A DNA stretch of 64,000 bases, taken from assembly GCA_903822425.1 (NCBI GenBank), contig CAIJOY010000023.1, positions 1 through 64,000 of the forward strand, in the 5' to 3' direction. This document shows, in pieces, positions 4,954 to 64,000 of this stretch. Below the pieces are notes generated by a model. It saw nothing but the letters and a program-made list of their open reading frames with translations. It had not been told where the DNA came from and ran no database searches. Origin of the DNA: an uncultured Actinomycetes bacterium. Its GTDB lineage: Bacteria > Actinomycetota > Actinomycetes > Nanopelagicales > Nanopelagicaceae. Both the position numbers and the translations under genes were made by a program. The number at the start of each line of letters is the position of its first letter. The stretch's first letter is position 1.

Positions 4954-6054
4954 TTAGCCCTTGAGTTCGACCGCAAACTTGGCTATAGCTTTTCGCAGAA
5001 CTGAGCGGTCATCAATTTCTACAAGGGTGGCGTGATCTGCTTGTGCTTTGGTGACTGCTCGAAGATCTCGTGGAAGGGTGAAGATTCGTTCCGGACGTAG
5101 GACGGCAATTGCGGCCAGGAAAGCGCTTTCCAACTCGCCTTCCTTGCGGCTGGCAGATTTCATATTGAGCAAAACACTAACTTTTGCCCTCATCGCTAAT
5201 GCAGAAAAAGCGGTAACAAGATCTTTCAAACGATGAATTCCGATCGCATCGGCTCTGCCAATAAGTATCAACTCATCGGCGGTGTCGCACGACCAATGAG
5301 TAATGGCAGCAGTCCATCGCCTATCGGTTAAAGAATCTGCAACTTTTTCTATGGACCCCAAATCGATGATTATCAAATCAAATTCCTGCATCGCGCGTTC
5401 CATTTGTGTGCTGAGGCTCTGTGTGCGCTCTTGAGTAATCTCTCCCGCACTTAGGTGTGTTGCAATTATTTGCCAGGGTTCTCCTTCTTGCATGTTGCGT
5501 AATGCAAGCAAGGGGGCAATGGATGGGCGGCGCACATCTCCATCTAACAAAAGCACATCACGACCTAGCAAACTTGCCTCCATAGCAACATTAATTGCAA
5601 CTGTGCTGCACCCCGATGAGGTTGAGACACCGGCAAGAGCGATTACTTGCGCACGCCGGTGTGCTGAGGTTGGAAGCCGAGATTCACGAATCATCGGCGC
5701 GCGCAGTACACCTCGAACAATAGAGATCAGTTCTGTCGCATCTTGTGGCATTGAAAGGATCCCAGGGAAGTCGCTAGCGTCATTGTGATGTTGGGTAAAG
5801 CCGATTACTTGCCGCAGTTTTCTCCCATATTCTTGCAGCTTTTCAGGAGTGATACCGGAAAGATCTGGTGAGTAGATCAGAAGGGAGTTCTTGGCTACTT
5901 CTGCATTAGCCTGGATATATAGGATAAGTGATTCAACATTAATGGCACGGTATATGACACTCCAACCTTGCGAGTACAGAGTTCCCGCGACAAAACTTTC
6001 TGATTCAGAATTTGTAATTGCTGTAATAACTACAGGAAGTTCTATCTCAGCCAT
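4954..6054 (-). CDS. CpaE/MinD-like P-loop protein with a degenerate Walker A
   Basis: A 366-residue protein with an amino-terminal receiver-like region (about 1-115) followed by a ParA/MinD/CpaE-type domain beginning near 135. The nucleotide-binding loop reads AGVSTSSGCSTVAINVA (141-157), so both the signature lysine and the P-loop lysine of MinD are missing. The A' aspartate remains in VLLLDGD (171). CpaE proteins of Tad pilus systems localise the machinery and often have atypical loops. The start overlaps the upstream SAF gene by 8 bases, so the two are coupled. No TadA, TadB/C or pilin gene is visible nearby, so the pilus role is unproven. Confidence 0.72.
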   Translation of the reverse strand: MAEIELPVVITAITNSESESFVAGTLYSQGWSVIYRAINVESLILYIQANAEVAKNSLLIYSPDLSGITPEKLQEYGRKLRQVIGFTQHHNDASDFPGILSMPQDATELISIVRGVLRAPMIRESRLPTSAHRRAQVIALAGVSTSSGCSTVAINVAMEASLLGRDVLLLDGDVRRPSIAPLLALRNMQEGEPWQIIATHLSAGEITQERTQSLSTQMERAMQEFDLIIIDLGSIEKVADSLTDRRWTAAITHWSCDTADELILIGRADAIGIHRLKDLVTAFSALAMRAKVSVLLNMKSASRKEGELESAFLAAIAVLRPERIFTLPRDLRAVTKAQADHATLVEIDDRSVLRKAIAKFAVELKG

Positions 6055-6646
6055 TCAAACTCACCACAACTACACGGCCCGTAGACGTGGCTTCAAGAAC
6101 TTGAAGAACTCTCTTTTCATTGATAGCAATTGTCATGGAAAGATCACCTCCGAGATTTGCACCTTTTCTATCAATCCCAAGAATGTAGGCGTGTGCTAAA
6201 AGCAAAGTAGGGGGACCAATATCTGTATTCAATCTGGCATCACCAACGTGATAGAGGTTAATCAGCGCGCCTGCTTCGAGATTAATGGGGATATCTGATG
6301 CATGCACACTGATAGGTACCGAGGTAGTCTCTAGAACTTGCAGATCATTGCTCAGAGCTGAAACGGGAATCAATTCACCTGATTGAATGCTGCGAATCAC
6401 AATCGTGCCTTCTAAATTTTCCCCGGCGTTTACATAGTCAGAATTTCCATCCGGGAGAGATACACGAACAGCGGCAAGATCTCCCATTGTGATGATGTGA
6501 CCTGGGGGAAGGTTTTGGACCCCGCTCCACATCATGACCGTTCGATTAGACAAACTTGATAGCACAAATGCAGATATGAACGATGCGCTAATTAACGCAA
6601 TCGCAGTAACGAGTCGAGTCCGAGTTCTTCTTTTATACATTGTCAT
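6047..6646 (-). CDS. SAF-domain membrane-anchored protein (CpaB/RcpC-like)
   Basis: A 199-residue protein with a basic amino terminus (MYKRRTRTR), one transmembrane segment (about 12-32) and an extracytoplasmic SAF domain (about 43-105; NLPPGHIITMGDLAAV and GTIVIRSIQSGELI are typical). SAF domains occur in CpaB/RcpC pilus assembly proteins and in FlgA-like chaperones. It overlaps the CpaE-like gene by 8 bases, giving the CpaB-CpaE pairing seen in Tad/Flp loci but without the rest of such a locus. Function beyond an envelope role is inference. The 125-bp spacer to the divergent gene at 6772 probably holds its promoter. Confidence 0.75.
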   Translation of the reverse strand: MTMYKRRTRTRLVTAIALISASFISAFVLSSLSNRTVMMWSGVQNLPPGHIITMGDLAAVRVSLPDGNSDYVNAGENLEGTIVIRSIQSGELIPVSALSNDLQVLETTSVPISVHASDIPINLEAGALINLYHVGDARLNTDIGPPTLLLAHAYILGIDRKGANLGGDLSMTIAINEKRVLQVLEATSTGRVVVVSLNG

Positions 6647-6771
6647 AGTGAGTAACTAAAGAAGGTGAGGACAAATAATTCATTTGCCAATCCACAGTCA
6701 TCCGAAGGGATGAGTTAAACCTCCACTACTAGGGCGAGGCATTCTCCGGGCGCCAACGCAACAGTTGGGAT

Positions 6772-7284
6772 ATGACCACTTCTGCAAGAACTCTCCGAAC
6801 AATTTCACTACTACCAGTTTCCAGTATCGAGCCTGAACTTTGGGCCCACCCCATGCTTGCGCTCTACCGCCCAGATGAAGTTTCTGTTTTTGAAAGAAAA
6901 CCCTTGCTCTATGCAGTGCCTACTCGATTTAATGAAGAGTATGACCCTGATTTTTCTCCGCAGCCAACTTCAGCAAGTGAATTACCAGACATCGCTCAAT
7001 GGGCGCTGAAATTTGGAACAAGCGTTTTAGAAATATGGGCCGGCAAACGCCAACCTGCTCAACTTGCTCGGTGGTGTCACCGTGGAATTTATCCCGACCT
7101 TGTTAAAGCAGTAGGTTCTGAAAGTCACGTAGGCAAAATTCGCAAGTTACATCAAACTCAGCCACTTGATGGAATCTGCGAAACGATGATCACCGTTCGA
7201 TTTGAAGATCGCATACGAGCTCTAGTAATACGCTTTGAAGGAGTCGACCATCGGTGGCTTTGTACATGTCTGACCCTGCTTTAA
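6772..7284 (+). CDS. Rv3235-family protein (DUF6459-like)
   Basis: A 170-residue cytoplasmic protein of unknown function. Its pattern of a hydrophobic helix with EIWAGKRQPAQLARW, followed by a carboxy-terminal beta-rich part ending in RIRALVIRFEGVDHRWLCTCLTLL, resembles the actinobacterial Rv3235/DUF6459 family, which is found near secA in other genomes. The amino-terminal 80 residues are proline-rich and probably disordered. It is divergent from the SAF gene and ends 5 bases from the convergent secA stop. No enzymatic motif is visible. Confidence 0.7.
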   Translation: MTTSARTLRTISLLPVSSIEPELWAHPMLALYRPDEVSVFERKPLLYAVPTRFNEEYDPDFSPQPTSASELPDIAQWALKFGTSVLEIWAGKRQPAQLARWCHRGIYPDLVKAVGSESHVGKIRKLHQTQPLDGICETMITVRFEDRIRALVIRFEGVDHRWLCTCLTLL

Positions 7285-7289
7285 AAGTG

Positions 7290-9959
7290 CTAAGCAACAC
7301 CATGGCAGCGCTTGTACTTCTTGCCCGATCCACAAGGACACGGTGCGTTTCGCGAAGGTCCACCACTTGTCTGTACTCCAGATTCATCTGCTGCCGAATA
7401 TTGTAATTGAGTGGGAGCGGAATGATCTTGGATACCCTTAGCGTTAACGGATTTGCTACTTTCCTCGACACTAACTTCGACGTTGAAAAGGTATCCAGCA
7501 ATCTCTTCCTTAATGGCATCCATCATCGCAGCGAAGAGATCAAAGCCCTCGCGTTGATATTCCACAAGAGGGTCACGTTGAGCCATTGCACGAAGGCCAA
7601 TACCCTCTTGCAGATAGTCCATCTCATAAAGATGTTCGCGCCATTTTCGATCAAAAACCGAAAGGAGAACTTTGCGCTCAAGTTCGCGCATCACTTCAGA
7701 ACCTAATGCGCTCTCACGAGTGGCATATGCCGATATCGCATCATCAACTACTCGTTGTTCTAGATAATCTGTATCAAGGGCGCTACGACTTCCAAGTTCA
7801 TTTTCAAGATCTTTAATAGTAAATGAAATCGGGTAAAGAGCACTAAGAGCGGTCCATAACGTTTCTAGATCCCAATCTTCCGGAAACCCTTCACCAGTAG
7901 CCGCAGCCACATAAGCACCAAGAGTGTCTTTAAGGAAGGTCTGTACCTGGTCCTTAATATCCTCGCCCTCTAGAACTAGGCGACGTTCACCATAAACAAC
8001 TTGGCGCTGACGATTAAGAACATCGTCATACTTGAGAACGTTCTTGCGAATTTCAAAGTTTTGTGCTTCCACTTGTGTTTGTGCTGAGCGAATTGCATTA
8101 CTCACCATTTTTGATTCGATAGGAGCATCATCTGGAATTCCCGCTGCTGATAAGAACCGTTCCACAAGACCCGAATTAAAACGACGCATAAGATCATCTT
8201 GCAGAGAAAGATAAAAGCGGGACTCTCCTGGATCGCCTTGGCGCCCAGAACGACCGCGTAACTGATTATCGATACGCCGAGATTCGTGACGCTCAGTTCC
8301 CAATACATACAGGCCACCTAATTCGACAACCTGTTCATGCTCCTTTGACACAGCTGCTTTTTGTTTGGCAATCTCTTCAGGCCAAGCACTTTCATATTCT
8401 TCAGGGGTGTCTACTGGTGAAAGTCCGCGGCGTTGCAATTCGAAATCTGCCATAAATTCGGGGTTACCACCAAGCATGATGTCTGTGCCGCGACCAGCCA
8501 TATTGGTTGCAACCGTTACAGCTGCAATCGTGCCAGCGCGAGCAATGATTGCTGCCTCTCGCTCATGGTGTTTGGCGTTTAGCACCTCATGAGCGACACC
8601 ATTTTTGCGAAGCACTGCAGATAGTTCTTCAGATTTTTCCACGCTGACAGTTCCAATGAGAACTGGCTGGCCTTTGCGATGGCGTTCGACAATATCTTGT
8701 GCGACTGCTGCAAATTTTCCAGCTTCAGTTTTGTAAACTAAATCAGATTGATCTTTACGAACCATCTCACGGTTAGTTGGGATAGGAACCACGCCTAATT
8801 TGTAGATTTGATGGAATTCTGAAGCTTCTGTCATAGCAGTACCAGTCATGCCAGAAATCTTCTTATATAAACGGAAGTAGTTCTGCAAAGTAATTGTTGC
8901 CAACGTCTGATTTTCATCTTTAATTTCAATACGCTCTTTTGCCTCAAGAGCTTGATGCATGCCATCGCTATAACGGCGTCCAGATAGCACCCGGCCAGTG
9001 TGTTCGTCGACGATGAGGAGCTCGCCATTCATAACGACATAATCCTTATCGCGCTTGTAAAGTTCTTTAGATTTAACAGCGTTATTGAGATAGCCAATTA
9101 AAGGAGTATTGACTGACTCGTAGAGGTTGCCGATCCCCAGGAGTTCTTCAACTTTTGTAACTCCATCTTCAAGGATGCTCGTCGTGCGCTTTTTCTCATC
9201 TACTTCATAATGGATATCGCGTTGCAATTTGCCAGCAATGTTTGCAAATTCTAGATACCACTTAGTGGCTTTATCTGCGGGTCCGCTGATAATTAATGGT
9301 GTACGAGCTTCATCGATAAGAATTGAGTCAACTTCATCGACAACTGCAAAGAAATGTTCCCGCTGAACGCAATCTTGGAGATCCCAAGCCATGTTGTCGC
9401 GGAGATAATCAAAACCAAATTCATTATTTGTGCCATAAGTTATATCCGCAGCATATGCAGCACGTCGCTCCTGCGGAGTCATTGAAGCGAGAATGACTCC
9501 CACGTTCAATCCCAAGAAGCGGTGGATACGTCCCATCCATTCGCTATCACGTTCTGCTAAGTAGTCGTTAGTGGTAACAACGTGCACGCCTTTTCCTGCG
9601 AGGGCATTGAGGAAAGATGGAAGTGTCGCAACAAGGGTTTTACCTTCACCTGTGCGCATTTCAGCAATATTTCCACGGTGCAAAGCCGCGCCACCCATTA
9701 TTTGAACATCGTAATGTCGCTGGCCAAGAGTTCTCTTTGCCGCTTCACGAACAAGAGCAAAACTCTCCGGCAAAATATCATCCAGAGTTTCTCCGGCCCC
9801 AAGGCGAGCCTTGAGACTCTGAGTCATTTCTCGAAGCGCCTCATCGCTCATCTGCGAGATTGTTGCTTCATGAGCGTTCACGGCAGTAACAACTTTGGCT
9901 AAGTCGCGAAGAACTCGACCTTCCCCTGCGCGCAAAATGCGATCAAGAAACGCTGGCAT
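7290..9959 (-). CDS. secA: Preprotein translocase ATPase SecA
   Basis: The motor ATPase that drives unfolded proteins through SecYEG. At 889 residues it is full length. It carries Walker A in [11 protein letters not shown] (near 105), Walker B/DEAD-like [11 protein letters not shown] (near 210), the NBF2 motif MAGRGTDI (near 490), the scaffold and wing domains, and a carboxy-terminal zinc-binding SEC-C segment ([14 protein letters not shown]) for SecB or ribosome contact. It is the housekeeping SecA1 type. The upstream neighbour is comFC. The hpf gene that commonly lies between them in actinobacteria is missing here. Confidence 0.98.
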
Positions 9960-48618: not shown

Positions 48619-50333
48619 AATCAGTACTCATCGCAAATCGCGGCGAAATTGCTGTTCGTGTGATCCGTGCATGCAAAGACCATGGTCTTAAATCAATCGC
48701 CGTGTACTCCAGCGAAGATAGAAATTCAATGCACGCGCAAATGGCTGATGCCTCCTACTCCCTAAAAGGTACAACGGCAGCTCAAACGTATTTGAATATT
48801 GAAGCCATCATCGAGATCGCCAAGAGTTCTGGAGCCGAAGGAGTGCACCCCGGTTATGGATTTCTTTCTGAGAATGCAAATTTTGCACAAGCAGTTTTGG
48901 ATGCTGGCTTAATTTGGATTGGTCCTCCTCCTGCTGCCATTAAATTGCTAGGTGACAAAGTTTCTGCACGCAAAATTGCAGCAAAAGTTGGCGCACCTCT
49001 CGTTGCTGGCACTGCAGACCCAGTAGCTGGGCATGAACAAGTCACCGCATTTGCCAAAGAGCACGGTCTACCAGTTGCGATCAAAGCGGCACATGGCGGT
49101 GGTGGCCGCGGGCTTAAAGTTGCACGCACGATGGAGGAGATTCCAGAGCTTTTCGCCTCAGCTGTTCGTGAAGCAATTGCTGGTTTTGGTCGTGGAGAAT
49201 GTTTCGTAGAACGATATCTCGATCGTCCTCGCCATGTAGAGACACAAGTTTTGGTCGATAGCAAAGGTCACGCTGTAGTTATTAGTTCGCGAGATTGTTC
49301 CTTGCAACGGCGTCACCAAAAATTAGTAGAAGAAGCACCGGCACCATTCTTAAGTGATGCTCAGAACGCAGAGCTCTATCGCTCAAGCAAAGCAATTATG
49401 AAAGAAGCTGGGTATGTCGGCGCAGGCACGTGCGAATTTCTTGTCGGAGTCGATGGAACTATCTCATTCCTAGAAGTGAACACACGCTTGCAAGTTGAAC
49501 ATCCTGTCAGCGAGGAAGTTTCTGGAATTGATTTAGTGCGTGAACAATTTCGAATTGCAATGGGTGAAGAGCTCGGTTATGACGATCCCGTTATACGTGG
49601 TCATTCGATCGAATTTCGAATTAATGGTGAGGACCCCGGCCGATCATTTCTACCGGCACCTGGGCGAATTACTGAATGGGCCTTGCCGACTGGACCAGGA
49701 GTGCGCGTCGATGCTGGGTTTAGAAACGGCGACATCATTGGTGGTAACTTCGATTCACTCCTAGCAAAACTCATTGTTACGGGAAATTCTCGTGAACAAG
49801 CTATAGAGCGAGCTCGCCGAGCATTAGATGAATTTCATATAGATGGACTTGCGACAGCGCTGACTTTCCACAGAGCAATTGTGCAAGATCCAGCATTTAC
49901 TCAAGATTTTAAGGTCTATACAAGTTATATAGAAAATGAATTTAAAAACACTATTCCTCAATTTGTTGCATCGAGTGCACACACTCAAACTCATGCTGCC
50001 CCAGAACACATTGTTGCCGAAGTTAATGGACATCGATTCGAGGTAACGCTGCATGCACCGGAACCAGTCCACAAACGCCACCGTGCAAAAGCTGGCATGA
50101 GTGGACTTGTAGCTGGTAATGGCTTACCTAGTCCAATGCAAGGCACTGTTGTTAAAATTGCTGCACCCGAGGGAACTCACGTTGAAGTTGGTGATTTAGT
50201 GATCGTTTTAGAAGCGATGAAGATGGAACAGCCATTGATGGCTCACAAATCTGGCATCGTAACAAACCTCACGGCGGTAATCGGAGAGACGGTGGCAAAC
50301 GGCGCCATTCTCTGTGACATTATTGAGGCATGA
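48615..50333 (+). CDS. accA3: Acyl-CoA carboxylase alpha subunit (biotin carboxylase plus carrier domain, AccA3 type)
   Basis: It carboxylates its own biotin with ATP and bicarbonate. The amino-terminal biotin carboxylase ([56 protein letters not shown]) spans about 1-450. The carboxy-terminal carrier domain has the biotinylated lysine in EAMKMEQPL, near residue 535 of 572. BirA at 45488 is the likely modifying enzyme. It overlaps the nucleoside phosphorylase gene by ATGA. Confidence 0.97.
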
Positions 50334-51166
50334 GCACTCTCGTTATTGATCCACTCTATGTAGACCCTCTTGGCACTGCAGAACTTGCCGCAGCACAAAT
50401 TGCCACACGCACAGCAATTGCGCGCCACGATGTTGCACTCGTCATGGGTTCGGGCTGGGTTGGAGCCACCGAGGCGCTGGGCACACCAACACATGAATTT
50501 AACGCAGAAGAAATAATCGGATTTTTACCACCATCGGTAGCCGGGCACTCTGGAAAAATAAGATCCTACGAAATCGACGGTCCTTCGGGATCCCTTCGAG
50601 CACTTGTTTTTCTAGGTCGCACGCATCTGTATGAAGGCAAAGGTATCGAACCTGTAGTACATAACGTTCGGACTGCTGTTAAAGCTGGTTGCAAAGTAGT
50701 CATTTTGACGAATGCTTGCGGCGGCATTAACACCACCTACCGTGTTGGACAACCAGTACTGATTCGTGACCATATTTCCCTCACTGCAACTAGCCCTCTT
50801 ATTGGTGCTAACTTTGTTGATTTAACCGACCTGTACAGCAAAAGAATTCGCACAATCGTGAAATCTGAAGATGCATCGCTACAAGAGGGTGTCTACGTAC
50901 ACTGGCGTGGCCCAACATATGAAACCCCAGCAGAAATCCTGATGATGCGCACAATGGGTGCAGATTTGGTGGGAATGTCCACCGTGCCAGAGGCGATTGC
51001 TGCACACGCCCTTGGTGCAGAAGTTCTGGGAATTTCCTTAGTTACAAACGCTGCTGCCGGAGTCACAGGGGAAAAACTTAACCACGAAGAAGTTATCGCT
51101 GCCGGAAAAGCTGCAGCAGAGCGTATGGGCGCACTTCTCAAAGGTGTTATTCCAAAGTTAATCTAG
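50330..51166 (+). CDS. Purine-nucleoside phosphorylase (trimeric PNP, PunA/DeoD type)
   Basis: It splits purine nucleosides with phosphate to base and (deoxy)ribose-1-phosphate. The 278 residues show the phosphate loop LVMGSGWVG, the histidine segment [41 protein letters not shown] and SLVTNAAAG. The trimeric type prefers guanosine and inosine. It is co-translated with accA3 and 4 bases before a phosphohexomutase/phosphopentomutase gene, as in mycobacteria (deoD-pmmB). It supplies ribose-1-phosphate to the nucleoside-catabolic region that follows. Confidence 0.93.
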
Positions 51167-51170
51167 AGCC

Positions 51171-52799
51171 ATGGATCCTCAACTACTTGCAGAAGTGAGC
51201 GCATGGATCGCTGATGATCCAGACCCAAAAACTGCAGAGTTGCTGCAAAATCTCGTGAGCGCTGGAAATGAAAAAGAATTAAAAAAATACTTTGCTGGTT
51301 TTCTCCAATTCGGTACTGCCGGATTGCGTGGACCAATGGGACCAGGACCATCATGTATGAATCGCGCTGTAGTGGGTCGTACCGCTGCTGGCATAGCCGG
51401 GTATATGAAAGTTCGTGGCTTAACTAGCGTAGTAATTGGACGAGACGCCCGTCATGGGTCGGAGGAATTCACACTAGAGAGTGCGCAGATTCTTAGCGGT
51501 GCGGGAATGAAAGTTTTTGTTCTTCCACGTCCACTTCCAACACCAGTTTTGGCTTTTGCCGTCAAGGAACTCGGTGTTGATGTGGGAATCATGGTCACTG
51601 CAAGCCACAACCCATCGCAAGATAATGGTTATAAGGTATATCTGGGTCCCACTGTTGACGGAATTGATTACAGCGGATCTCAAATCACTTCACCCACCGA
51701 TGGATATATTTCTCATGAGATCAATAAAATTACTTCGTTGTCGGCCACGCCCAGAGGTAGCAAGTGGATCAATTTAGATGACGATGTTGTCGAAAAATAT
51801 ATTCATCGCACAGCAAGACTCTCCACATCTCCTGGAGATCTCAAAATTGTCTACACGGCTATGCACGGCGTTGGAACTCAAACGATTCAACGGGTATTTC
51901 ATTCAGCTGGATTTGCTTCTTTTATTCTGGTGGACTCGCAAGCTCAACCCGATCCAGACTTTCCCACCGTGGCATTTCCTAATCCAGAAGAACCTGGCGC
52001 TATCGATTTGGCGTTGGAAACTGCTCGAACATTTGACGCTGACTTGGTTATCGCTAACGACCCAGATGCAGATCGTTGCGCTTGCGCCGTGAAAGATCCG
52101 ATTACTGGATGGCGCATGTTGCGTGGGGATGAATTAGGAGCCCTCTTGGGGGAATCCATCGCTCGCAAAAATCCCCAAGGTTCATTTGCAAACTCAATCG
52201 TTTCATCATCCATATTAAGCAAAATCGCTCGGCATTATGGTCTGGGCTTTCATGAAACATTGACTGGTTTCAAATGGATTGCAAAAGTGCATGATTTGGC
52301 ATACGGGTATGAAGAAGCGATCGGCTACTGCGTAGATTCACGCGGAGTCAACGACAAGGATGGAATTTCAGCAGCACTTGCCCTTGCCCAACTTGCTACC
52401 GACTTATCCAAGGAAGGTAAAACCCTTCTGGATCTTCTCAATGAAATTTGGAGTCGGCACGGTTTCCATGCCACCGAACAGATTTCCGTTCGTGTTGCAG
52501 AACTTTCAAAGATTCAAACCACAATGAATTCTCTTCGTGCGCATCCCCCAACTCATATCGCCGGTTACATGGTGGATTCATTAGATGACTTAATGCAACC
52601 CAAAGATCATTTGCCACCTACTGACGGATTACGTATCTGGCTGGCTGGAGATATCCGTATCATCATTCGCCCTAGTGGAACCGAACCAAAAGTAAAGTGT
52701 TATATAGAAGTTATAACCAAGGGAATTAAAGCTCACGAAGAAGCTACTGGGATTCTAGATGAGCTAAGGCCGATACTTCAGCAATTGCTTTCTTCTTAA
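51171..52799 (+). CDS. Phosphohexomutase/phosphopentomutase (PmmB type)
   Basis: A 542-residue long-form alpha-phosphohexomutase. It has FGTAGLRGPMGPG at the amino end, the phosphoserine in TASHNPSQDNGYKVY, Mg-binding DPDADRCA, and the carboxy-terminal phosphate loop RPSGTEPKVKCY. This long form next to a purine-nucleoside phosphorylase often acts as a phosphopentomutase converting ribose-1-phosphate to ribose-5-phosphate; glucose or mannose substrates are possible. Its stop overlaps that of the convergent RuBisCO-like gene (TTAA). Confidence 0.9.
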   Translation: MDPQLLAEVSAWIADDPDPKTAELLQNLVSAGNEKELKKYFAGFLQFGTAGLRGPMGPGPSCMNRAVVGRTAAGIAGYMKVRGLTSVVIGRDARHGSEEFTLESAQILSGAGMKVFVLPRPLPTPVLAFAVKELGVDVGIMVTASHNPSQDNGYKVYLGPTVDGIDYSGSQITSPTDGYISHEINKITSLSATPRGSKWINLDDDVVEKYIHRTARLSTSPGDLKIVYTAMHGVGTQTIQRVFHSAGFASFILVDSQAQPDPDFPTVAFPNPEEPGAIDLALETARTFDADLVIANDPDADRCACAVKDPITGWRMLRGDELGALLGESIARKNPQGSFANSIVSSSILSKIARHYGLGFHETLTGFKWIAKVHDLAYGYEEAIGYCVDSRGVNDKDGISAALALAQLATDLSKEGKTLLDLLNEIWSRHGFHATEQISVRVAELSKIQTTMNSLRAHPPTHIAGYMVDSLDDLMQPKDHLPPTDGLRIWLAGDIRIIIRPSGTEPKVKCYIEVITKGIKAHEEATGILDELRPILQQLLSS

Positions 52800-53890
52800 G
52801 AAACGCTGGCAACCATTGCTTGTGCGTTGTGCTCTAATGAACCACGTGAAAGTGCGCCGCCAATTAACAAAGCTAACGAAGTTCCATATATTTTGCGCAT
52901 TTCTGGAATTCGATCCAAGCTCATCCCGCCGGCCGGCGCGACCCAGATCGGTTTGAGCTTTCCCAATGGTTGTCGTGCCGATGTAGTGATGGACAAACAT
53001 TCTTCTTGAGTAAATGAGAATCGTCCGGAAAAATTAGGGAAAATGGAAATATCTGCTCCCGCCAAGCGCATTAGCGTTCCTAAAAGGATTGAATGTGAGA
53101 GTCCTTGATCGCGAGAGGTGAGCATAGAACCCAGCATGGCAGGATGTGATTGGATCGGAAGTGCAATCGAATCATCTTCAGCAATCGCACGCATCGCATC
53201 AAAACCACTGATTCCGGGGAGCAACAGAAGTGCACCGGCTCCTAGTGATTTCGCCTCATGCGCAGCTTGAAAAATTTGGTCGGCAGGCAGATTAAGTGAT
53301 GGGGCGTAGAGAGTTCGATTTCCAGATTTTTCATTTGCTTGAGCCACTGCACTTGCCACCGCTTCTACTCGCGTGCGCCAAGTTGCCCAAGGTTGATTGG
53401 CCAAACTGTGGTCATCCTTAATCATGTCAAACCCAGCAAGAGCAAGAACTGTTGCCATCTCTGCCAGCTCCGAAGCAGATGAGCCCATTGGTTTGAGTGC
53501 TGTGGTAATTAATGGACGAGTTGGTGCATCAAAGAGTTGGCGCAATCCGGGAACTCCAAAGCGTGGCCCCTTAAAATTCTTTAACACAGAATCCGGGAGG
53601 GAAATATCAGTAACACCTACGCCAGGAATTAATGACACATTCCCCCATAAAACATTGAGTAATTGTGGCAATTCACCGCCAACAACTCGTTGGTCATAGG
53701 AAATTACGACTTCGGTTTTGTTATTTACAGGACTACTGAGAGATTCGATCTGTCCTACTACATCGCGTTGAATTCTCGCGCTGGCCAGTTCAATTGGAAA
53801 CTCGATCGATTGTTCTACTCGAATCGCATCAGCTATTTCCTTTGCGTGTTCTCCTACGATTGAATAAGTGATCAAAATCCGATCAGACAT
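52796..53890 (-). CDS. RuBisCO-like protein (form IV)
   Basis: A 364-residue RuBisCO large-subunit homolog. Equivalents of active-site positions are K133 in ALKPMG (K175), K158 and D160 in GFDMIKDDH (carbamate lysine and aspartate), but H161 replaces the metal-ligand glutamate, P250 replaces the phosphate-binding arginine (SHPAM), and the KPMG motif lacks the second lysine. Loop 6 is not RuBisCO-like, so CO2 fixation is very unlikely. Known RuBisCO-like enzymes act on methylthioribulose-phosphate derivatives or on apionate-derived 3-oxo acids. It is last in a five-gene operon, 2 bases after the transketolase gene. Confidence 0.9.
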   Translation of the reverse strand: MSDRILITYSIVGEHAKEIADAIRVEQSIEFPIELASARIQRDVVGQIESLSSPVNNKTEVVISYDQRVVGGELPQLLNVLWGNVSLIPGVGVTDISLPDSVLKNFKGPRFGVPGLRQLFDAPTRPLITTALKPMGSSASELAEMATVLALAGFDMIKDDHSLANQPWATWRTRVEAVASAVAQANEKSGNRTLYAPSLNLPADQIFQAAHEAKSLGAGALLLLPGISGFDAMRAIAEDDSIALPIQSHPAMLGSMLTSRDQGLSHSILLGTLMRLAGADISIFPNFSGRFSFTQEECLSITTSARQPLGKLKPIWVAPAGGMSLDRIPEMRKIYGTSLALLIGGALSRGSLEHNAQAMVASVS

Positions 53891-59152: not shown

Positions 59153-60178
59153 ATGTTAAAGCGCATAACAGCAACAGCTGCTGCACTTGCCATTGCAACA
59201 ATCGGCTTCAGCGCACCTGCACAAGCAGTGGCAAAGCCTGATTGCAGCAAAGCAAAGTTTAAGATTGGCGTCGTAACCGACCTAGGAAAAGTTGATGACA
59301 AGTCATTCAACCAATCCGCATGGGATGGCGCAAAAGATGGTGCAAAGAACATCTCTGGCGGTTGTGCAACATATATCGAAACCACAGATTCAAAGGATTA
59401 CGCAAAGAACATGGCTCTCTTCGGTGATGCCAAGTACAACGTAATCGTCACAGTTGGCTACTTGATGCAAGATGCATCAGCAATCGCAGCTCTTAAGTAC
59501 CCAAAAATCAAGTTCATCGGCGTTGACCAGAACAACAGTTCAACAGCGGCAAACATGACTGGACTCATCTTCGAAGAAGATAAGTCTGGCTTCCTTGCTG
59601 GTTACCTCGCTGGTTACCTAACAAAGACAAATAAGGTCGGTGGCGTTCTTGCTGCTAAGGAAGTTCCACCTGTCTATCGTTACGGTCAGGGATATATCAA
59701 TGGCGTTGCATACGCTGCAAAAGAGCAGAAGAAGACCATCAAAACTTCTGTTGTCTACCACGAAGTTGGCGCAACCATGTTTAACGATTCACCATGGGGC
59801 GCAACAACAGCAGGTCAGCTACTGAGCCAGGGTTACGACGTAATCTTCGGTGCTGGTGGCGGAACCGGAAACGGTGCACTTGCCAAGGTAGCAACAAAGA
59901 AGGGCATGCTCTGCATCGGAGTAGATACCGATCAGTGGTTCACTGTTCCAGAAGCTCACCCTTGCTTAGTCACTTCAGCAATGAAGTCTCTAGTCTCAGG
60001 TGTTTCTGACCTTATCGGTCTAGCTCAAAGTGGCTGGTCCGGCGGCGAGTACATTGGTGATGCAGCAATCGCTCCATACCATGACCTTGCATCAAAGGTT
60101 CCAGCAGCAGTACAAGCAAAAGTTAATGCCATCACTCCTAAGGTTCTAGATGGAACTGTAAAGACAGGCGTTAAGTAA
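59153..60178 (+). CDS. BMP/PnrA-family substrate-binding protein of a nucleoside ABC transporter
   Basis: A 341-residue exported protein that captures ligand for the importer encoded downstream. It has a Sec signal peptide (about 1-25, ending APAQA), and the mature Bmp domain begins KFKIGVVTDLGKVDDKSFNQSAWDGAKD, typical of purine-nucleoside-binding PnrA/BmpA. No lipobox is present: Cys31 is preceded by AKPD and follows the predicted cleavage site, unlike most Gram-positive relatives. A long hairpin follows the gene. Substrate class (nucleosides) comes from the family; the specific nucleoside is inferred. Confidence 0.92.
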   Translation: MLKRITATAAALAIATIGFSAPAQAVAKPDCSKAKFKIGVVTDLGKVDDKSFNQSAWDGAKDGAKNISGGCATYIETTDSKDYAKNMALFGDAKYNVIVTVGYLMQDASAIAALKYPKIKFIGVDQNNSSTAANMTGLIFEEDKSGFLAGYLAGYLTKTNKVGGVLAAKEVPPVYRYGQGYINGVAYAAKEQKKTIKTSVVYHEVGATMFNDSPWGATTAGQLLSQGYDVIFGAGGGTGNGALAKVATKKGMLCIGVDTDQWFTVPEAHPCLVTSAMKSLVSGVSDLIGLAQSGWSGGEYIGDAAIAPYHDLASKVPAAVQAKVNAITPKVLDGTVKTGVK

Positions 60179-60268: not shown

Positions 60269-61330
60269 ATGACTGTGAGCGACACCAAGAAAAAGGGTTT
60301 TGATCTAGGCAATTGGATGATCCCGATCATCGCAGTTGCGATTGCCATGTTTATTGCTGGCATCATGATGAAGTTACAAGGTGCTGATCCAATCAGCGCA
60401 TACAAAACTTTATTTACAACATCATTTGGTTCCGTAGCTGGCTTCTCGGCCACATTGGGTAAGGCAACCCCCCTTGTGCTTAGCGGCCTTGCCGTGACCA
60501 TCGGTCTTCGCGCCGGTCTATTCAATATTGGCGCACAAGGTCAACTGATCTCTGGGGCGCTAGCTACAGCGTGGGCTGGCTACGCCTTAACAGGGCTTCC
60601 TGCTTTCATTCATTTACCTATCGCCCTAGCTTTCGGGATCTTCTTCGGTGGCTTTGTTGGTTACATCGCAGGAGCGCTCAAGGCATATCGCGGAGTGCAT
60701 GAAGTTATTACAACGATCATGCTCAATAGCATCATCATGGCTCTATCTGATTATTTAGTTGTCTACCACTTCCGTGAGCCAGGCCAATTACTCACTCGAA
60801 CTTCAGAAATTCAAAAAAGCGCACGCTTGCCCTTTATTTTTAGTTTGCCCCTTGGTTTCTTTATCGCCATCGCTTGCGCGGTTCTGGCCTGGTGGATTAT
60901 GACAAATACCACCAGCGGTTTTCGGTTTGAAACAGTTGGTCGCAATAAATTTGCAGCATGGTATGCCGGCATTTCAGTCAAGCGCACTTTGGTAATGGCC
61001 ATGATGATTTCTGGTGGAATTGCAGGTCTTGGTGGTGCAGTAGAAACTCTTGGAGTTACCTATCGTTTTGAACCCGCTTTTAACGCAGGTCTAGGTTTTG
61101 ACGGAATTACCATCGCGCTCCTTGGCCGTGCACATCCTCTCGGAATTATTCCAGGTGCAATTTTGATTGGCGGCATGCGTGCAGGCGCATCCAACATGCA
61201 ATTTGTTGCGGGTGTGGCCACTGAACTTGTAGACCTGCTCATGGCACTCATTCTCTTCCTTGTAACGGCGCCATTGGTGACGCGCTTTTTTAAGAACACA
61301 ACATCCAAATCTGTAACGGGTGGGTGGTAA
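60269..61330 (+). CDS. Nucleoside ABC transporter permease 1 (BPD_transp_2)
   Basis: A 353-residue membrane protein with eight or more helices, of the branched-chain/ribose/nucleoside permease family. It has the LRAGLFNIGAQGQL and GFDGITIALLGRAHPLGIIPGA motifs typical of BmpF/NupB-type permeases. The amino end is a short cytoplasmic tail. A GTG at 60275 with better ribosome-site spacing is an alternative start. It follows the hairpin, and its last bases overlap the next permease region. Confidence 0.9.
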   Translation: MTVSDTKKKGFDLGNWMIPIIAVAIAMFIAGIMMKLQGADPISAYKTLFTTSFGSVAGFSATLGKATPLVLSGLAVTIGLRAGLFNIGAQGQLISGALATAWAGYALTGLPAFIHLPIALAFGIFFGGFVGYIAGALKAYRGVHEVITTIMLNSIIMALSDYLVVYHFREPGQLLTRTSEIQKSARLPFIFSLPLGFFIAIACAVLAWWIMTNTTSGFRFETVGRNKFAAWYAGISVKRTLVMAMMISGGIAGLGGAVETLGVTYRFEPAFNAGLGFDGITIALLGRAHPLGIIPGAILIGGMRAGASNMQFVAGVATELVDLLMALILFLVTAPLVTRFFKNTTSKSVTGGW

Positions 61331-61335
61331 CGCTC

Positions 61336-62319
61336 ATGAAATATCTATCAAAACGAAATCTCCTCATCGTTCTCATCGCAGCGGCCACCGCATATTTTTA
61401 TTCCAAAGATGGATCAGTGACAACTTCTGTTGTATCAACTGCAACATCCTTTGCACTCCCCCTTGCTCTTGCCGCAATGGTGGGAATCATGTGCGAACGC
61501 ACCGGTATTGTGAATATTGGAATTGAAGGAACACTTCTCACCTCAGCCTTCGTCGCATTCTTTGTTTCATCCCTTACCAGCAACATTCTTCTCGGATTAG
61601 CGGCATCTATTGCCGTAGGTTCGCTGCTAGGACTTTTGCTTGCAGTGATGGCAGTGACCTGGAAGATGGATCAAATTATTGCTGGAACGATAATTAACAT
61701 TTTGGCAACCGGTCTTACTTCTTTCCTCTACGTACAGGGACGCACAATTCCATCAACTTTTCCGGAATATGACATTCCAAAACTCATGAACCTTCCATTC
61801 TTTGGACCCGTTCTTTTCATGCACGGCCCGCTCTTCTACTTTGGACTTTTCGTCATCCTCTCCCTCTATGTGGCATTGTTTAAAACCACATGGGGTCTGC
61901 GCTCACGTGCTGTGGGTGAACATCCAAGCTCGGCCGACACGGCTGGAGTATCGGTTGCACGTCTTCGCTATATCAATGTTGCAATCGCTGGGGCAATCGG
62001 TGGTTTAACTGGATCCTTCTTAAGCTTAGAACTTGTTGGTTCATTTGAACGCGGTTTTACCGCTGGTAAAGGTTTTACCGCTTTGGCATTGATGATCTTC
62101 GGTCGCTGGAATCCTTTGGGAGCACTTGCTGCGGCCATGATGTTTGGAATGACACAAGCGTATGCAAATCAATTAATGATTGATCAAGTAATTCAGATCC
62201 CAACGCAATTTATTGGTGTCCTACCCTACATTTTGACGATCATTGTCCTTGCAATCTCGGCTGGGAAAGTTAGACCTCCAGCAGCTGAAGGACAACCCTA
62301 CGAGAAGGCGGATGCATAA
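61336..62319 (+). CDS. Nucleoside ABC transporter permease 2 (BPD_transp_2)
   Basis: A 327-residue second permease of the same family with about nine helices, MCERTGIVNIGIEGTLL near 55, and the carboxy-half RGFTAGKGFTALALMIFGRWNPLGA. I chose ATG at 61336, five bases after the permease 1 stop; a GTG at 61324 inside permease 1 would add four residues. Its TAA overlaps the ATPase ATG (TAATG). Two different permeases plus one fused ATPase is the usual BMP importer composition. Confidence 0.9.
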   Translation: MKYLSKRNLLIVLIAAATAYFYSKDGSVTTSVVSTATSFALPLALAAMVGIMCERTGIVNIGIEGTLLTSAFVAFFVSSLTSNILLGLAASIAVGSLLGLLLAVMAVTWKMDQIIAGTIINILATGLTSFLYVQGRTIPSTFPEYDIPKLMNLPFFGPVLFMHGPLFYFGLFVILSLYVALFKTTWGLRSRAVGEHPSSADTAGVSVARLRYINVAIAGAIGGLTGSFLSLELVGSFERGFTAGKGFTALALMIFGRWNPLGALAAAMMFGMTQAYANQLMIDQVIQIPTQFIGVLPYILTIIVLAISAGKVRPPAAEGQPYEKADA

Positions 62320-63827
62320 TGTCTGATCTACTTGAAATCACGGGCCTGACAAAACAGTTCCCTGGGGTATTAGCAAATGACAATATTTCACTCACAGTAA
62401 AAGCTGGCGAAGTTGTTGCGCTTTTAGGCGAAAATGGCGCTGGTAAGTCCACGCTTGTAAAAGCCGTTTTCGGTTTGATCAAGCCAGATAAAGGCCAGAT
62501 TAAGATTTCTGGAAACGTTATCGAATATGGCGATACTGCAGGAGTTATTGCGGCAGGCGTAGGAATGGTGCACCAACATTTCCAACTAGTCCCGGTTATG
62601 AGCGTTACTGAAAACATTATTTTAGGTGATGAGCCACGACGAGGATTTTTTATCAATCGGCAAAGCTCACGCAAACAGGTCATCGAACTTTCTAAACGTT
62701 ATGGCCTTGAAGTAGATCCAGATGCAATCATTGAAGATTTGCCAGTAGGTATGCAGCAGCGAGTGGAAATTCTTAAAGCACTTCGTAAGGATGTGAAGTT
62801 GTTGATACTGGATGAACCGACAGCGGTGCTGACGCCACAAGAAATCGATGAACTTCTTCTAGTAATTCGAAATCTTGCGAAATCTGGGGTTGGAATCGTT
62901 CTCATCACCCACAAACTTCACGAGGTTATGGCAGTTGCTGATCGAGTATTGGTTCTTCGCGGAGGTAAAGCCATCGGTTTCACCTCTCCCAAAGAAAGTG
63001 ATGAGGCGGGTCTTGCCCAAATGATGGTCGGACGTAGCGTCGTGTTGCGTGTTGACAAGAAACCTGCAAAACCTGGTAAAGCTGCCCTTGAAGTGAGGGG
63101 ATTACAGGTTCTGGATGATCGCAAGTTACTTTCAGTTAAGGGTGTTGATCTCACGGTGCACTCAGGTGAGATTCTTGGCGTTGCTGGCGTCGAAGGAAAT
63201 GGCCAACGTGAATTAGTGGAAGCCATTTGTGGAATGCGCCATCGTGTTTCTGGCCAAGTCTTAGTCGCTGGAGTTGCTACCAAAGATATGCACCCTCACG
63301 CTGTACACCTTGCCGGTATCTCTCATATTCCGGAAGATCGTGAAAAACACGGCCTTGTTGCGAATTATTCCATCGCCGATAATTTAGTTCTCAATCAATT
63401 TGATCAAGCGCCTTTTGCCAAAGGATGGGTACGCAACATTTCTCAAGTTAATAGCAATGCTGATGCTGTTGTTGAAAAATTTGATATCCGCACTCCATCT
63501 GCACAAAACCTCGCCAGTTCGCTTTCAGGGGGAAATAAGCAAAAAGTTGTTGTGGCGCGCGAACTCAGCGAGGACCTCAAAGTTCTTGTTGCGGCACAAC
63601 CAACTCGTGGAATCGATGTTGGATCTATTGAATTTATTCACAATCAACTCATCGCAGCGCGCGATCGTGGAGCGGCAGTCTTACTTGTGTCGGCCGAACT
63701 CGATGAAATTCTTTCTTTATCCGATCGAATAGCGGTTATGTCAGGTGGGGAAATAGTGGCAATCGTGGATTCAAAAGATGCCGATCGCAATTACATTGGC
63801 CGCCTGATGGCCGGCATGAAAGCCTAA
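62319..63827 (+). CDS. Nucleoside ABC transporter ATP-binding protein (double NBD)
   Basis: A 502-residue protein with two nucleotide-binding domains. NBD1 has the full Walker A GENGAGKST, LPVGMQQRVEI as signature, and LLILDEPTAVLTPQ. NBD2 has GVEGNGQREL without the P-loop lysine, LSGGNKQKVVVAREL, and VAAQPTRGIDVG where the catalytic glutamate is glutamine. This asymmetric pattern is normal for the sugar/nucleoside ATPase family. It is followed 5 bases later by the MTA-phosphorylase-like gene. Confidence 0.93.
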   Translation: MSDLLEITGLTKQFPGVLANDNISLTVKAGEVVALLGENGAGKSTLVKAVFGLIKPDKGQIKISGNVIEYGDTAGVIAAGVGMVHQHFQLVPVMSVTENIILGDEPRRGFFINRQSSRKQVIELSKRYGLEVDPDAIIEDLPVGMQQRVEILKALRKDVKLLILDEPTAVLTPQEIDELLLVIRNLAKSGVGIVLITHKLHEVMAVADRVLVLRGGKAIGFTSPKESDEAGLAQMMVGRSVVLRVDKKPAKPGKAALEVRGLQVLDDRKLLSVKGVDLTVHSGEILGVAGVEGNGQRELVEAICGMRHRVSGQVLVAGVATKDMHPHAVHLAGISHIPEDREKHGLVANYSIADNLVLNQFDQAPFAKGWVRNISQVNSNADAVVEKFDIRTPSAQNLASSLSGGNKQKVVVARELSEDLKVLVAAQPTRGIDVGSIEFIHNQLIAARDRGAAVLLVSAELDEILSLSDRIAVMSGGEIVAIVDSKDADRNYIGRLMAGMKA

Positions 63828-63832
63828 CTTCC

Positions 63833-64000
63833 ATGAAAATTGGCATCATCGCTGGTACTGGTTTTTATAATTTGCCAGCACTTGCTGGTGCCACACCAAC
63901 TCCGGTTGATACCCAATACGGTAAGGCACTCATCACCAGGGGCAAGTGGCACAATGCCGAGATAGTTTTTCTTACAAGGCACGGTGTGGATCACAGTGTT
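63833..64000 (+). CDS. 5'-methylthioadenosine phosphorylase-like protein, cut by the window end
   Basis: The first 56 residues of a phosphorylase: MKIGIIAGTGFYNLP at the amino end, then TPVDTQYGKALITRGKWHN and VFLTRHGVDHS. The GxxGGTG/AGTGFY, PYGKxxx and RHGxxH pattern belongs to the MTA/MTI phosphorylase (PNP type II) family. It starts 5 bases after the transporter ATPase, so it is part of that transcript. If it is MTA phosphorylase, it would give methylthioribose-1-phosphate, the MtnA substrate. The rest lies beyond base 64000. Confidence 0.85.
   Translation, partial: MKIGIIAGTGFYNLPALAGATPTPVDTQYGKALITRGKWHNAEIVFLTRHGVDHSV

Follow-up and report, generated by a model that had tools for sequence, protein, structure and literature searches.

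The analysed stretch of 64,000 nucleotides, hereafter the window, comes from the genome of an uncultured actinobacterium of the Nanopelagicaceae. Its minus strand carries an operon in which mtnA is followed by a gene coding for a class II aldolase fused to a short-chain dehydrogenase (SDR), by the two genes of a split transketolase and, in last position, by rlp, which codes for a RuBisCO-like protein (RLP) (Table 1). The successive gaps are -4, 11, -4 and 2 bp, the N-terminal transketolase gene overlapping the next gene by 4 bp and the C-terminal one ending 2 bp before rlp. The genes of a BMP-family importer, a candidate for the uptake of nucleosides or of methylthioadenosine (MTA), a sulfur-bearing metabolic by-product, are located upstream and are divergent from the operon. 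The complete MTIP gene (C23:63833-64567) is followed beyond the window by the gene of a MtaD-like deaminase (C23:64567-65886, positions via locus L028), both lying about 10 kb from rlp on the same contig.

Table 1. Features of the rlp region, with the evidence for each assignment.
Feature	Position	Strand	Basis
Purine nucleoside phosphorylase	50330-51166		beside the operon
Phosphosugar mutase	51171-52799		beside the purine nucleoside phosphorylase
RLP of the DeepYkr clade (KDDH), probable MTRu-1-P 1,3-isomerase, 364 aa	52796..53890	-	phmmer, Pfam, motifs, tree, AlphaFold/Foldseek
Transketolase C-terminal chain (Transket_pyr + Transketolase_C), 337 aa	53893..54906	-	PF02779/PF02780; 6YAJ 5.6e-63; own clade (starred support 99)
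Transketolase N-terminal (ThDP-binding) chain, 306 aa	54903..55823	-	PF00456; 6YAK_AAA 6e-32; altered motifs
Class II aldolase / short-chain dehydrogenase fusion (RhaD-like), 656 aa	55835..57805	-	PRK08324.1-4 2.4e-164, TIGR02632 2.4e-155 (both under the curated cut-offs)
MtnA, S-methyl-5-thioribose-1-phosphate isomerase, 337 aa	57802..58815	-	TIGR00512 equivalog, 382 bits, cut-off 279
BMP-family (PnrA-like) substrate-binding protein, ABC importer	59153..60178	+	PF02608 1.5e-39
ABC permease of the BMP importer	60269..61330	+	ORF, position; homologue beside rlp in L055
Second ABC permease of the BMP importer	61324..62319	+	ORF, position
ABC importer ATPase, start MSDLLEITGLTKQFPG...GENGAGKSTLVK	62319..63824	+	ORF in L028 (2320-3825)
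S-methyl-5'-thioinosine phosphorylase (MTIP), gene start	63833..64000	+	NF006599 equivalog, 244 bits, cut-off 223

The deaminase reaches 385 bits with PRK09045, below the cut-off of 540, and also scores, again below cut-off, to the 5'-deoxyadenosine deaminase PRK07228. In the related loci L043 and L055 the MTIP and MtaD genes directly follow rlp, and in L055 the same BMP transporter stands beside the three genes. MtnA and the S-methyl-5-thioribose kinase MtnK (TIGR01767, over cut-off) adjoin the transketolase-rlp pair in several loci, including Treponema L060, the kinase gene preceding that of the transketolase. This context of mtnA, MTIP, MtaD and MtnK ties the operon to the salvage of MTA or of 5'-deoxynucleosides. 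The aldolase-SDR fusion is a candidate for a second branch from MTRu-1-P or 5-deoxyribulose-1-P; in L036 (7002-8969) its gene is split in two ORFs of 554 and 100 aa by a frameshift or an assembly error. The genome also possesses its own DXS (L151), a canonical transketolase (L150) and an O-succinylhomoserine sulfhydrylase (TIGR01325, 552 bits, cut-off 510; the O-acetylhomoserine type scores below cut-off), and no PAPS reductase was found in it. Sequenced acI strains are devoid of assimilatory sulfate reduction and therefore need reduced sulfur (PMC5301498).

The initial annotation had drawn attention to the RLP for a histidine in place of the metal-ligand glutamate of RuBisCO. The open reading frame, which starts with ATG, is real, and the residues are numbered as described: K133 in ALKPMG, K158-D159-D160-H161 in GFDMIKDDH and S248-H249-P250 in SHPAM. 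The KDDH codons read AAG GAT GAC CAC and the same residues are present in relatives of 34-79% identity (alignment and motif table), which excludes both a sequencing error and chance. The protein matches the Pfam family RuBisCO_large (PF00016, 1.1e-21) and its best solved relative in phmmer is 3QFW (4.4e-68). Its AlphaFold model (mean pLDDT 95, pTM 0.93) displays a RuBisCO-like fold, for which Foldseek ranks 3QFW first (TM 0.90). Membership in RuBisCO itself was rejected, the equivalents of K201/D203/E204, K175/K177 and R295 showing replacement of E by H, of the second K by M and of R by P. The annotation had set the protein apart from RuBisCO and probably also from MtnW, which is in agreement with the motif, the NCBIfam scores and the tree. 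The proline of SHPAM is present as it stated but does not separate the RLP from MtnW, since the MtnW structures 4NAS, 2OEK and 2ZVI read AHPA; the separating residue is the histidine that replaces glutamate.

To place the family, 80 related RLP loci were assembled in a tree of 90 rows that included MtnW references; for OiaC and the Photo-clade RLPs the comparison relied on NCBIfam scores and Foldseek ranks only. A clade of 81 rows unites the 80 family members with 3QFW (starred support 99, as in Table 1), the MtnW references are outside (99, starred), and 3QFW groups with the Rhodopseudomonas loci (100, starred). At the K-x-D-E position, KDDH is read in 69 of the 80 loci and in 3QFW, KDDQ in the remaining 11, all from Nitrospira, and KDDE in the MtnW references, so that KDDH was rejected as a novel active site. 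3QFW carries ALKPQG, IKDDHG and AHPAM, and its Rhodopseudomonas relatives have likewise KDDH, KPQG and AHPA. RLPs of the DeepYkr clade are marked by KDDH combined with KP[M/Q]G and HP, a signature that the window RLP bears. The PDB entry 3QFW is titled as a Rubisco-like protein of Rhodopseudomonas palustris. This species has two RLPs and RLP2 corresponds to 2QYG, a Photo-clade protein; by elimination, 3QFW should be RLP1.

Two DeepYkr proteins, the R. rubrum RLP and R. palustris RLP1 (RPA2169), turn MTRu-1-P into MTXu-5-P and 1-methylthioribulose-5-P in a 3:1 ratio; their kcat is about 1.2-1.3 per second, and the role was confirmed with deletion strains (PMC5893883). Both are thus MTRu-1-P 1,3-isomerases, in vitro as well as in vivo (PMC5893883; PMC4958253). 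The window RLP falls inside the DeepYkr clade (99, starred), for which this activity is proven in the two species (PMC5893883), and the histidine is therefore a known subfamily signature, an ordinary finding that is already explained. The phylogeny and the motif comparison uphold the separation from MtnW and place the protein in a characterised clade that shares its KDDH. As to the suggestion of a subfamily with different chemistry, the subfamily does differ in its chemistry, but neither it nor its motif is new. As judged from sequence, the assignment of the window RLP as an MTRu-1-P 1,3-isomerase is well supported. It belongs to the half of the clade other than the cupin half, with 34-42% identity between the two.

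The Nitrospira RLPs (L069, L071, L075, L080-L083, L086, L087, L103 and L104) constitute a starred subclade in which glutamine (KDDQ) occupies the place of the third metal ligand and the GGRF and PAGG motifs are altered, and neither the RLP-type transketolase nor the cupin was found in their genomes; their sequences make them better candidates for odd chemistry than the window RLP. Some relatives of the same genus (L016, L017 and L018) possess, in small actinobacterial genomes, a protein of 418-478 aa with DFIKNDEPQG and YHRAG, like a true form II RuBisCO. Two loci titled Bifidobacterium breve (L037) and Bordetella parapertussis (L088) group with acI actinobacteria and betaproteobacteria and are probably mislabelled metagenome bins.

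The conserved split transketolase encoded next to rlp, which the initial annotation passed over, is of more interest than the histidine of the RLP. The RLP-linked chains form one clade (99, starred) apart from the Carboxydothermus split transketolase, from other split transketolases and from DXS. Alignment with the human and Carboxydothermus enzymes revealed fixed replacements of SGHPGGSLS by GGYMSQACS, SKGHAS by SPAHYA, GHPD...VPG by MIGAEHSPG and THAGL.VGEDG by LPGI.TPGG, whereas the ThDP glutamate and the THQ histidine are kept. The conserved sugar-channel histidines and aspartate of canonical transketolase are thereby missing. In established transketolase structures the replaced histidines, lysine and aspartate are sugar contacts, and a substrate different from that of ordinary transketolase is accordingly likely from the sequences.

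In Treponema L060 and L066 both chains are fused in one gene beside rlp, preceded in L060 by mtnA and a mtnK-like kinase gene. The model of the fused L066 protein is good for the domains and poor for the assembly (pTM 0.52), and Foldseek matched it about equally to transketolase and DXS, so that the structure favours neither chemistry. A split transketolase 47% identical to that of the window (L165, genome G055, 6850-8656) is sister to the RLP-linked clade; it is devoid of the altered motifs, its genome does not contain this RLP, and it possibly represents an ancestor-like function.

The transketolase genes adjoin rlp in 26 loci, and four further genomes have them at a place away from rlp (59-61% identity). 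The paired loci span at least six phyla, their carriers being acI and other actinobacteria, Chloroflexi, Acidobacteria, Aminicenantes, Treponema (as the fused gene) and Lachnospiraceae. Among 60 relatives, all genomes of the family of the window organism that have this transketolase contain rlp, and no rlp-less genome has it. In a sample of 396 Actinomycetota genomes it was detected in three, adjoining rlp in all three, one of these rlp genes being a fragment at a contig end. None of the open-access papers searched joins this RLP with a transketolase; an earlier description in other, subscription papers is possible.

In 30 loci, mostly from Proteobacteria and Meiothermus, rlp is followed instead by a cupin gene, and no locus has both partners. 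Genome-wide, over the 80 tree rows, a cupin is present in 4 of the 30 genomes with the transketolase versus 35 of the 50 without it (35 of 39 when Nitrospira is removed). The Fisher p of 7e-7 for this alternation overstates independence, since about four changes on the tree are enough to explain the transketolase state, a number with which an independent-pairs test cannot reach significance. Where rlp has only a cupin for neighbour, the transketolase is absent from the whole genome in every case. Six actinobacterial RLP genomes without transketolase carry a cupin elsewhere, namely five of the seven checkable genomes of the Planktophila lacus group, which lost or never had the transketolase, and G089. 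In the four loci examined, this cupin gene is divergent from that of O-acetylhomoserine sulfhydrylase, by which methanethiol is captured in the shunt as it is known (PMC4958253). In L152-L155 (acI) these two genes and a short conserved gene compose a compact methanethiol-capture module. A strict genome-wide exclusion was rejected: four acI genomes contain both partners, three actinobacterial RLP genomes and L093 contain neither, and the replacement is thus not absolute. No match to the cupin MTXu-5-P methylsulfurylase was found in the window genome, which is 98% complete. In L077 (Chitinispirillaceae, 5841-7484) a single ORF of 548 aa matches both RLP and cupin, an apparent isomerase-methylsulfurylase fusion that supports a functional link between the two proteins.

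On balance, we consider it probable that the RLP acts in the salvage of MTA or 5'-deoxynucleosides and that a dedicated split transketolase replaces the cupin in the use of the RLP product. This reading starts from the clade membership, the motif, the operon, the MTIP and MtnA assignments and the conserved pairing, all established at the level of the sequences; from them we infer the RLP substrate in this organism and the identity of its product with the transketolase substrate. The BMP transporter would import MTA and related 5'-deoxynucleosides, the MtaD-like deaminase would convert MTA to MTI, and phosphorolysis by MTIP would yield MTR-1-P. MtnA would then form MTRu-1-P, to be cleaved by the aldolase or taken over by the RLP, the aldolase-SDR protein providing a parallel branch like Ald2 in R. 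palustris. The RLP would 1,3-isomerise 5-methylthio-D-ribulose-1-phosphate to 1-methylthio-xylulose-5-phosphate, and possibly also act on 5-deoxyribulose-1-phosphate. The split transketolase would convert MTXu-5-P to glyceraldehyde-3-phosphate and a two-carbon methylthio unit on ThDP. Methanethiol, if lost from this unit, could be captured by the O-succinylhomoserine sulfhydrylase of the genome (TIGR01325).

More tentatively, and with less confidence than for the pathway as a whole, the transketolase may be a ThDP carbon-sulfur lyase: splitting of MTXu-5-P would give glyceraldehyde-3-phosphate and a methylthio-enamine on ThDP, and beta-elimination of methanethiol would leave acetyl-ThDP, whose acetyl group would come off as acetate or acetyl phosphate. 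This proposal is made by analogy with phosphoketolase, which expels water, and with sulfoacetaldehyde acetyltransferase, which expels sulfite. Actinobacteria generally make mycothiol and not glutathione (PMC6302742), and a route free of thiols may suit them for this reason.

The main substrate may be another than MTA, because the same upstream enzymes serve 5-deoxyribose salvage (PMC6079011). An operon that salvages 5'-deoxyadenosine, in which the RLP would convert 5-deoxyribulose-1-phosphate to 1-deoxy-xylulose-5-phosphate for isoprenoids and the aldolase and the transketolase would serve as overflow (to acetaldehyde and triose phosphate), nevertheless appears unlikely to us. Clusters of MtnK or MTAP, MtnA and class II aldolase are proven for such salvage (PMC6079011), an aldolase is present in the operon and the deaminase scores, below cut-off, to PRK07228. 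Use of 1-deoxy-xylulose-5-phosphate, however, would require no transketolase, and the genome has its own DXS; the phosphorylase is over the cut-off for the methylthioinosine equivalog, and the alternation with the cupin points to carbon-sulfur cleavage. Less credible still is a general ribose-1-phosphate route in which, after phosphorolysis of nucleosides, MtnA would make ribulose-1-phosphate, the RLP xylulose- or ribulose-5-phosphate, and an ordinary transketolase would feed the pentose phosphate pathway. The purine nucleoside phosphorylase and the nucleoside-type BMP transporter beside the operon would suit it, as would the ribose-1,5-bisphosphate isomerase cousins of MtnA-like enzymes (TIGR00511), but the neighbouring phosphosugar mutase could already turn ribose-1-phosphate into ribose-5-phosphate, a canonical transketolase is encoded in the genome, the RLP-linked one has lost residues with which ordinary transketolases hold their sugar, and MTIP and MtnK are methylthio-specific families. 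Finally, it is very improbable that the RLP is a diverged, MtnW-like DK-MTP-1-P enolase or an OiaC/OiaX-like protein of the apionate pathway, as the NCBIfam matches to MtnW (210 bits against a cut-off of 409, and 160 against 514) and to OiaX (NF042437, a partial match of 82 bits against 700) are far under the curated cut-offs, which range over 409-700 bits, the tree sets the RLP outside MtnW with 99 (starred) on both sides, KDDH stands where MtnW has KDDE, and none of mtnB, mtnX, mtnD or the apionate genes was recognised in the operon.

In the favoured reading, salvage with the transketolase in place of the cupin, what is new is the conserved RLP-transketolase pair, which the sequences suggest to be a variant of the known MTA-isoprenoid shunt with a predicted transketolase step. 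If this is true, bacteria without glutathione would complete a RubisCO-like methionine salvage by means of a ThDP enzyme cleaving a carbon-sulfur bond, and the link with the RLP would supply a defined candidate substrate for this transketolase family. With a lyase, the salvage branch would be independent of oxygen and need no glutathione, and its users would be freshwater actinobacteria, Chloroflexi, Acidobacteria, Aminicenantes, spirochaetes and gut Lachnospiraceae. In freshwater, no bacteria are more abundant than the acI actinobacteria; MTA-type compounds could be a sulfur source for them and methanethiol a product.

Compared with the RLPs of R. palustris (3QFW) and R. rubrum (Rru_A1998), the window RLP has the same fold, size, clade, KDDH, KP[M/Q]G, [AGS]HPA, GGRF and PAGG, and its genome too contains mtnA and a sulfhydrylase; it is however only 38-40% identical to 3QFW, the two fall in different halves of the clade, the genome has no cupin, and rlp adjoins the split transketolase and the aldolase-SDR fusion. 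The split transketolase of Carboxydothermus hydrogenoformans (6YAJ/6YAK), of which 6YAJ is the closest solved structure to the C-terminal chain, resembles that of the window in its two genes, domains, ThDP motif, GMAEQNM glutamate and THQ histidine, whereas the window enzyme has GGYMSQACS, SPAHYA, MIGAEHS and LPGI.TPGG for the ordinary SGHPGG, SKGH, GHPD and THAG..GEDG. In the clusters of 5-deoxyribose salvage (DrdKIA) and of the DHAP shunts there is neither RLP nor transketolase, and the window aldolase differs by its fusion to an SDR. With the MTA-isoprenoid shunt of R. rubrum type the window genome shares MtnA (TIGR00512) and the MTI phosphorylase (NF006599), both over cut-off, but the cupin is missing. 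The cupin methylsulfurylase of that shunt, Rru_A2000, and the transketolase share the presumed step after the RLP and alternate across genomes, yet they are unrelated in fold and cofactor, the one being a thiol (glutathione)-dependent cupin and the other a thiamine-diphosphate enzyme.
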